NCBI GenBank assembly: GCA_026129865.1
Contig: JAHCHG010000009.1
Location: 2,501-66,500, forward strand
Origin: Pyrinomonadaceae bacterium
Lineage (GTDB): Bacteria; Acidobacteriota; Blastocatellia; Pyrinomonadales; Pyrinomonadaceae
Reading direction: 5' to 3'
Length of the DNA: 64,000 bases
In this document: positions 41,827 through 43,275 of the stretch, one piece after another
Numbering within the stretch: position 1 is the first letter of the stretch
Layout: each line of letters begins with the position of its first letter
Notes under the pieces: generated by a model
The model's database searches: none
Told to the model about the DNA's origin: nothing
The model's input: the letters and a program-made list of their open reading frames with translations, nothing else
Made by a program: the position numbers and the translations under genes

Positions 41827-42288
41827 ATGGTAAATGTTGGAGATACCGCTCCGGATTTCGAACTTGCGAGCCATCTTGATAAAGACAAGAAGGTAAAGCT
41901 TTCGGACCTGCGCGGAAAAAATGTTGTAATTGCGTTCTATCCTTTGGATTGGACGCCTGTTTGAACGGTTCAAATGCCTTCCTACGAAGCCGATAAATCG
42001 CGCTTTGAAGGATACGATGCCCAAGTTTTGGGTATCTCAGTCGATAGCATACCGAGCCATGTTGCCTGGGCGAAAAGCCTCGGCGGTTTGTCATACGATC
42101 TTTTAGCCGATTTTCACCCGAAAGGTGAGGTCGCAAAACAATTCGGCGCCTGGCGCGACAGTGACGGAATTTCCGAACGCGCGCTTTTCATCGTCGATAA
42201 AGAAGGAAAGATCGCTTACAAAGACATTCATGATATTGGCGATCAGCCGGACAATGAAGAATTGTTTGATGTTCTGAAAAGACTCTAA
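41827..42288 (+). CDS. Selenocysteine-containing peroxiredoxin (in-frame UGA)
   Basis: 153 residues if the UGA at 41962-41964 is read as selenocysteine 46. The frame is peroxiredoxin on both sides: GDTAPDFELASH, LSDLRGKNVVIAFYPLDWTPV-U-TVQMPSYEADKSRF, QVLGISVDS, ERALFIVDKEG. The Sec falls exactly on the peroxidatic position of the TPxxC motif, as in AhpE/BCP-type enzymes that reduce peroxides with thiols. AGGAG at 41811-41815 precedes the ATG. A hairpin suited to a bacterial SECIS follows the UGA. Automatic calling would start at the ATG 41974 and lose the active site. A terminator follows at 42298. Confidence 0.88.
41977..42011 (+). promoter_or_regulatory. SECIS hairpin of peroxiredoxin
   Basis: Twelve bases after the UGA, CCTTC (41977-41981) pairs with GAAGG (42007-42011), GAAGC (41986-41990) with GCTTT (42002-42006), and CGA (41991-41993) with TCG (41998-42000) around TAAA. 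Position and size fit a bacterial selenocysteine insertion element recognised by SelB, although the loop can only offer a G if the top pairs open. Confidence 0.55.
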
Positions 42289-42349: not shown

Positions 42350-42535
42350 ATGGCTGGAGAAAAACCGAAAATTTCGATCCTGCAGATAATCTGCGTCGCT
42401 TTCGGCGTTTTTTTAGGTTTGATGCTTGTCCGGTTCGTGTTCGCGTTGGAAGGAGTTTTCGGCGGGGCGATCGGCGGCGCACTTGGCGCGGCGATCGGTT
42501 TAGGATTGTTCGAATTGATAAATAGATTTAGATAG
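42350..42535 (+). CDS. Small glycine-rich membrane protein, 61 aa
   Basis: 61 residues with one or two hydrophobic segments, the second glycine/alanine-rich (GVFGGAIGGALGAAIGLGLF), similar to glycine-zipper membrane peptides. It begins 11 bases after the peroxiredoxin terminator and ends five bases before the ATG of the second selenoprotein gene, so it is probably co-transcribed with the latter. No family recognised. Confidence 0.55.
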   Translation: MAGEKPKISILQIICVAFGVFLGLMLVRFVFALEGVFGGAIGGALGAAIGLGLFELINRFR

Positions 42536-42540
42536 ATCAT

Positions 42541-43275
42541 ATGACAAATTTTTCGAGGAAATGTGTGCCGTTTACGCCGTTTGACGGCGATCTGAGCAAG
42601 GCTACGATCGCGATCGTTTCGGCAGCAGGCGTCCACAGAAAAGATCAGGAAGTATTTAATATAGAAGATGAGCTCGGCGATCTGAGCTATCGAGTGATGG
42701 ATGAAAACGTTCGATCGTCCGATCTGATGGTTACGCATCATCATTACGACCATGCCGATGCCGATCAGGACATCAATGTGGTTTTTCCGATCGATCGTTT
42801 GCGGGAACTGGTCGACGACGGCGTTATCGGCGGACTCGCGCGGAAACATATAGGATATATGGGCTATACGATGCGTCTGAAGCAGATGTATGACGAAACC
42901 GCTCCGCAGATCGCAGATGAGATCGACCGCGGATCGCGTGCCGATGCAGTCATCTTAACCGGCGGCTGACCGAACGTTTGCCACCGCACAGTTGTCGCGG
43001 TTCAACGTGAAATAGAAATGCGCGGAACACCGACGGTCTTGATAACCGTCAGCCCCGAAGTGTCGGCTCAAATGCGACCGCCGCGCGCGCTCTATCCGAA
43101 TGGTTTTAAGATCGGCAACAGTTTAGGGAAACCGAATATCAAGCAGCTTCAGAGAAACGTATTGCTCGATGCATTGAATCTGCTTTCCGAAAACACCCGT
43201 CCCGGAAGTTTTGTAACAAAGGAGTATCCGGAATACGGCGAATTTCACGAGCATTCGAAGGTAAAAGGAAGCTGA
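42541..43275 (+). CDS. Selenoprotein of the GrdB/PrdB family (in-frame UGA)
   Basis: 244 residues if UGA at 42967-42969 is read as selenocysteine 143: AVILTGG-U-PNVCHRTVVAVQREI. The pattern Sec-x3-Cys followed by a helix and GTPTVLITVSPE matches selenoprotein B of glycine/betaine/sarcosine/D-proline reductases, whose Sec attacks the substrate. The frame continues 102 codons past the UGA with family-like sequence to 43275, so premature termination is unlikely. No grdA, grdC or prdA genes are near, so this is probably a stand-alone aerobic relative of unknown substrate. A perfect-fit hairpin follows the UGA. Confidence 0.87.
42974..43008 (+). promoter_or_regulatory. SECIS hairpin of GrdB-family gene
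   Basis: Four bases after the UGA, ACGTT (42974-42978) pairs with AACGT (43004-43008) and ACCGC (42983-42987) with GCGGT (42997-43001), leaving small internal loops and a nine-base apical loop ACAGTTGTC about 18 bases from the UGA. This is the geometry of bacterial SECIS elements. Confidence 0.7.

Follow-up and report, generated by a model that had tools for sequence, protein, structure and literature searches.

In D-proline reductase, PrdB performs the selenocysteine (Sec)/Cys redox chemistry and the pyruvoyl subunit binds the amino acid. Sec-containing PrdB is a known family that is abundant in the Sargasso Sea and GOS sequence sets (PMC1088965, PMC2398784), and PrdB-like selenoproteins, labelled as proline reductase, are among the commonest in ocean surveys. 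A Sec-containing peroxiredoxin (Prx) adjoining SelW has also been reported in the literature, with no known functional link. The published bSECIS model places the hairpin at a spacing of 16-37 nt from the UGA, and some elements are said to lie outside the model. In the open-access literature, we found no report of a Prx-PrdB pair, of a UxxxC form of PrdB, or of PrdB-like selenoproteins in Acidobacteria. Here, we analyzed a stretch of 64,000 nucleotides from a Pyrinomonadaceae bacterium (referred to as the window), which contains a PrdB-like selenoprotein gene downstream of a Sec-containing Prx gene.

The PrdB-like gene occupies positions 42541 to 43275 on the forward strand and encodes 244 amino acids including Sec143, with the stop codon TGA at 43273-43275. 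Codon 143 (42967-42969) is a TGA within VILTGG-U-PNVCHRTVVAV, and the frame is otherwise open. A scan of one genome per species identified 40 loci, 37 of which include the UGA site. TGA was kept in all 37, with in-frame continuation and 64-85% identity on either side of the codon. A natural orthologue (L064 = L084, genome G009), 67% identical, carries Cys at this site (TGG-C-PEVCH), and no frame ending at the UGA was seen among the 37 site-covering loci and the Cys orthologue. U143 opens a UxxxC motif with C147, and both residues are invariant in the clade alignment. SelA, SelB, SelD, and tRNA-Sec are present in the genome of the window, each above its curated cut-off. Thus, the reading of the UGA in TGG-U-PNVCH as Sec, proposed in the first-pass annotation, was borne out, and comparison of the loci indicates that 42541-43275 is a real selenoprotein gene. 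The genome of the Cys orthologue still contains SelA, suggesting that Sec and Cys can be exchanged without loss of the selenocysteine trait. SelD of the window's genome (L056, L103; G000 contig C19:28421-29347) likewise contains an in-frame TGA and is probably another selenoprotein.

A candidate SECIS hairpin is located at 42983-43001 on the forward strand. It had been described as a textbook hairpin composed of two five-pair stems and a nine-base loop. The upper stem, ACCGC/GCGGU closing a nine-base loop, is present and, based on RNAalifold, is better drawn as 5 + 2 pairs with one bulge and an AGUU tetraloop at 42990-42993, which is GGUC in most relatives. The lower five-pair stem was rejected as a conserved element, as 82% of cells were paired in the relatives with no excess covariation. 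The hairpin agrees with the published bSECIS model: the loop lies 20 nt past the UGA, G is at loop position 2, and the energy is -7.8 kcal/mol. However, "textbook" is too strong a word, since this energy is unexceptional (z = -0.74) and 27% of alternative synonymous codings of this peptide retain the structure. The hairpin on its own is therefore weak evidence and was discarded as stand-alone proof. A search against Rfam gave no match within the window.

Synonymous constraint provides better evidence for a SECIS than folding energy. Codons U+5 to U+11, where the hairpin is located, form the most synonymously constrained seven-codon window of the gene (CAC in 39/39 and GCG in 39/39). In the hairpin stem, 99.2% of cells were paired and covariation was absent, as a nearly invariant stem leaves no room for covariation to appear. 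The hairpin is decayed in the Cys orthologue, in which CAC, CGC, and GTC are altered and the GU of the loop is lost.

The PrdB-like protein matches TIGR04483 (PrdB) over nearly its full length (residues 11-229) at 182 bits, short of the curated threshold of 300 bits, which a bona fide PrdB exceeds at 362 bits. It passes PF07355 (GRDB) at 45 bits (E 1.2e-11) against a gathering score of 22 bits, with residues 8-140 aligned to the C-terminal part of the model and the first ~210 model positions missing. A weak match to the PfpI (deglycase) profile was also detected. The motif of the window clade is U-P-x-V-C, with I in one locus, and is U143-P-N-V-C147 in the window. It is one residue longer than that of other Acidobacteriota members of the PrdB family, which is mostly U-P-[LVI]-C; bona fide PrdB encoded in reductase operons (L079, L082), as well as L081 and L083, has U-G-T-C. 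The Cys equivalent, present in family f30, is CPETC. The proposed match to the Sec site of selenoprotein B thus holds for the GrdB/PrdB superfamily but is not a simple one at the motif, because this clade has UxxxC and PrdB and GrdB have UxxC.

The maximum-likelihood tree separates true PrdB (99/100) from a 29-row group (100/99) that contains the window protein; some branches are long and the deep order outside the 29-row group is unsure. Twenty-eight of these rows are Prx-linked, and the remaining one (G265) has its Prx elsewhere on the same contig. The segment LMVTHHHYDH (residues 62-71, 42724-42753) is invariant in the Blastocatellia clade, where true PrdB has SHGGYDN; it resembles a metal-binding HxHxDH signature. 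Based on the tree and the motif, the protein is a GrdB/PrdB homologue of a clade of its own, not merely a stray PrdB. The window's genome has a second, divergent PrdB-family gene (L096; G000 contig C12:465611-466240), about 30% identical and stop-free, in which Sec/Cys is not kept at the motif site in the alignment; paralogues of this kind without a stop occur commonly in the same family. Another PrdB-family gene (L074, L097; G219) has two in-frame TGA codons in its motif, U-P-I-U-H.

The Prx gene (41827-42288, forward strand) encodes 153 amino acids with Sec46 in TPVU and no other Cys. Its UGA (41962-41964) is TGA in 36/36 orthologous loci and Cys in the G009 orthologue, which indicates that it is likewise read as Sec. 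The gap to the downstream PrdB-like gene is 252 bases, matching the earlier estimate of about 250. Between the two genes, 42350-42535 contains a membrane-like, Gly-rich ORF of 61 amino acids, which is restricted to the closest relatives (L015, L018, and L048). In all scanned loci with sufficient flanking DNA, Prx lies upstream of the PrdB-like gene, and the pairing is kept in loci that have lost the neighbours CTP, Pfk, GreA, and AccC. Across 396 Acidobacteriota genomes, a PrdB-like gene directly follows 13 of the 15 best Prx orthologues; these pairs span eight families, with identities as low as 42% (PrdB-like protein) and 59% (Prx). The two unpaired cases are G265, which has both genes but apart, and G259, which has Prx only. 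No third recurring gene was found beside the pair, and the distant PrdB paralogues inspected (about 30-44%) showed no Prx linkage. The pair also occurs on a 3182-base contig (L047, VBLD01000462.1) of a genome labelled Deltaproteobacteria, where the two genes nearly touch; its presence there may stem from transfer or from mis-binning.

Thus, the view of this region as a linked selenoprotein locus was upheld and extended to a conserved tandem pair. The description "stand-alone" is correct in that reductase partners are lacking, but it understates the case because the protein has a conserved Prx partner. Given the adjacency in 13 of the 15 sampled genomes with this form of Prx, Prx and the PrdB-like protein probably act together.

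No conserved hairpin was found within 45 nt of the Prx UGA. Farther downstream, a covarying hairpin of eight pairs is located at 42017-42035 on the forward strand, with a GUU loop at 42025-42027. The loop (GUU, GUC, or GUG) begins 60 nt past the UGA, outside the published 16-37 nt range. Among 42 distinct Sec-Prx sequences, 97.6% of cells were paired, and at three pairs both bases are exchanged (20 cells; 0/500 shuffles). These cells count sequences and not events, so that a single inherited change weighs heavily; the three pairs represent at least three separate changes. In the sole Cys Prx, a single control sequence, four of the eight pairs are broken, which makes a distal SECIS possible. 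This hairpin may thus be regarded as a candidate distal SECIS.

What the two proteins do together was considered from gene linkage and the missing resolving Cys of Prx. We consider it slightly less likely than not that the PrdB-like protein transfers electrons to, and so reduces, the adjoining Prx. The two genes would then form a small selenium-dependent peroxide-reducing unit. The single Sec of Prx would reduce peroxide and become a selenenic acid. Because the window Prx lacks a resolving Cys, this role would fall to the PrdB-like protein: U143 or C147 would attack the oxidised selenium of Prx, and the other residue of the pair would resolve the mixed bond; thioredoxin or another general thiol system would then reduce the resulting Se-S bridge. 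In this view, the protein would carry out the Sec/Cys redox chemistry known from PrdB, uncoupled from the pyruvoyl subunit.

Several observations favor such a reduction of Prx. The adjacency spans eight families and outlasts other synteny with no third gene, and the Prx-linked clade, G265 included, is well supported (100/99), with neither a pyruvoyl subunit nor GrdA found. No Cys besides Sec occurs in the window Prx or in 25 further Prx sequences, both members of the pair carry Cys in G009, and U143 and C147 are invariant. Other observations speak against it. Many other Prx orthologues carry a single Cys, in one of two alternative positions, so that the group has no constant resolving Cys. In family f30, the PrdB-like protein has Cys and Prx has Sec, and the Prx of G259 lacks a PrdB-like gene. 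The AlphaFold2 model, Rossmann-like rather than thioredoxin-like and lacking an informative structural neighbour, likewise counts against this reading. In addition, many residues besides the UxxxC pair are invariant in the clade, THHHYDH included, which suggests a substrate pocket and thus more than an electron carrier.

These invariant residues would also be expected if the PrdB-like protein were an enzyme acting on a small substrate of its own, for example in reductive cleavage next to a carbonyl or in reduction of an organic electrophile, with Prx protecting its oxidation-prone Sec or clearing a by-product. We regard this as a serious possibility, somewhat short of even. GrdB and PrdB, its homologues, act on small substrates, and the AlphaFold2 model (mean pLDDT 87) has an alpha/beta Rossmann-like fold and not a thioredoxin-like one. 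A Foldseek search with the model gave nothing under E 1e-3, and a PDB sequence search gave nothing convincing. VIA-align reached at best a Z of 9.3, against LacI-type proteins and short-chain dehydrogenases, which was taken to reflect a common arrangement. A small-substrate enzyme thus stays under consideration because of the many invariant residues and because a confident model has no informative structural neighbour. However, no pyruvoyl or GrdA partner accompanies the protein, and no metabolic neighbour is conserved, whereas linkage to Prx is retained across long evolutionary distances.

Adjacency through co-regulation or co-inheritance of selenoproteins with unrelated redox jobs appears improbable. 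Other selenoprotein neighbours (Prx/SelW) have been reported without a known functional link, as such a history would allow. However, the genes remain adjacent in G029, G042, and G230, where the PrdB-like protein has Cys and Prx has Sec, and in G009, where both have Cys, so that Sec content is not what holds the pair together.

It is very improbable that the protein is PrdB of D-proline reductase or a glycine-type GrdB whose partners are encoded elsewhere in the genome. The nearly full-length TIGR04483 match would fit such a subunit, but its score is well under the cut-off, the motif is UxxxC instead of UxxC, and the clade is separate. In line with the first-pass annotation, no reductase partner was found near 42541-43275, and PF09338 (PrdA/GrdE) and PF04723 (GrdA) were absent from the assembly, in searches where positive controls matched; at 95.8% completeness, this absence is not absolute. 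Among 14 pair-bearing genomes tested, 13 lack a PrdA/GrdE homologue, and GrdA is likewise missing from nearly all of those tested. In G371, which deviates from this pattern, the Prx pair and a glycine-reductase-like cluster lie on different contigs. This cluster (contig C53; L106, L107) contains two PF09338 genes, a GrdB-like gene with TGA, and GrdA with TGA; such a cluster is, to our knowledge, unusual in Acidobacteriota. Considering the score, the motif, the missing PrdA, GrdE, and GrdA, and the clade, membership in a proline or glycine reductase was rejected. A true stop at the UGA, ending a decayed or truncated gene, found no support, is scarcely credible, and was discarded in view of the coding conservation past the codon in 37 loci, the Cys orthologue, the Sec machinery, and the synonymous constraint.

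If the two proteins form a system, part of the "PrdB" family would serve as an antioxidant partner instead of an amino-acid reductase. The Prx-tied clade gives part of the "PrdB" group a concrete, testable partner and calls for caution against annotation as D-proline reductase. The natural Cys versions in G009 and family f30 allow expression and assay in ordinary hosts, and the distant Prx hairpin offers a test of the maximum distance from the UGA at which a bacterial SECIS can act.

Taken as a whole, the locus may, though this is less likely than not, represent a peroxidase system of two selenoproteins that has so far gone unrecognised in Acidobacteriota, in which the SECIS of a one-Sec Prx lies 60 nt past the UGA and a PrdB-derived UxxxC selenoreductase is dedicated to this Prx. 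Its Prx is homologous to one-Cys peroxiredoxins, such as AhpE of M. tuberculosis, and to the selenoperoxiredoxin PrxU, and has a single catalytic Sec. It differs from AhpE, which uses Cys, and scores far under the cut-off of the PrxU model (78 of 270 bits). The PrdB-like protein resembles PrdB of D-proline reductase in its homology over residues 11-229, its similar length, and the position of its Sec, which is the same, ahead of CHR. Unlike PrdB, it has UxxxC, falls below the TIGR04483 cut-off in a separate clade, and is encoded next to Prx without PrdA. With GrdB of glycine, sarcosine, and betaine reductase it shares the region matching the C-terminal part of PF07355, whereas the first ~210 model positions and a GrdE or GrdA partner are lacking. 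The marine metagenome "PrdB" selenoproteins (PMC1088965, PMC2398784) are also Sec-PrdB homologues without a known reductase operon. They were reported with UxxC and as proline reductase, with Prx linkage unreported, and probably constitute the wider group that includes the window protein.
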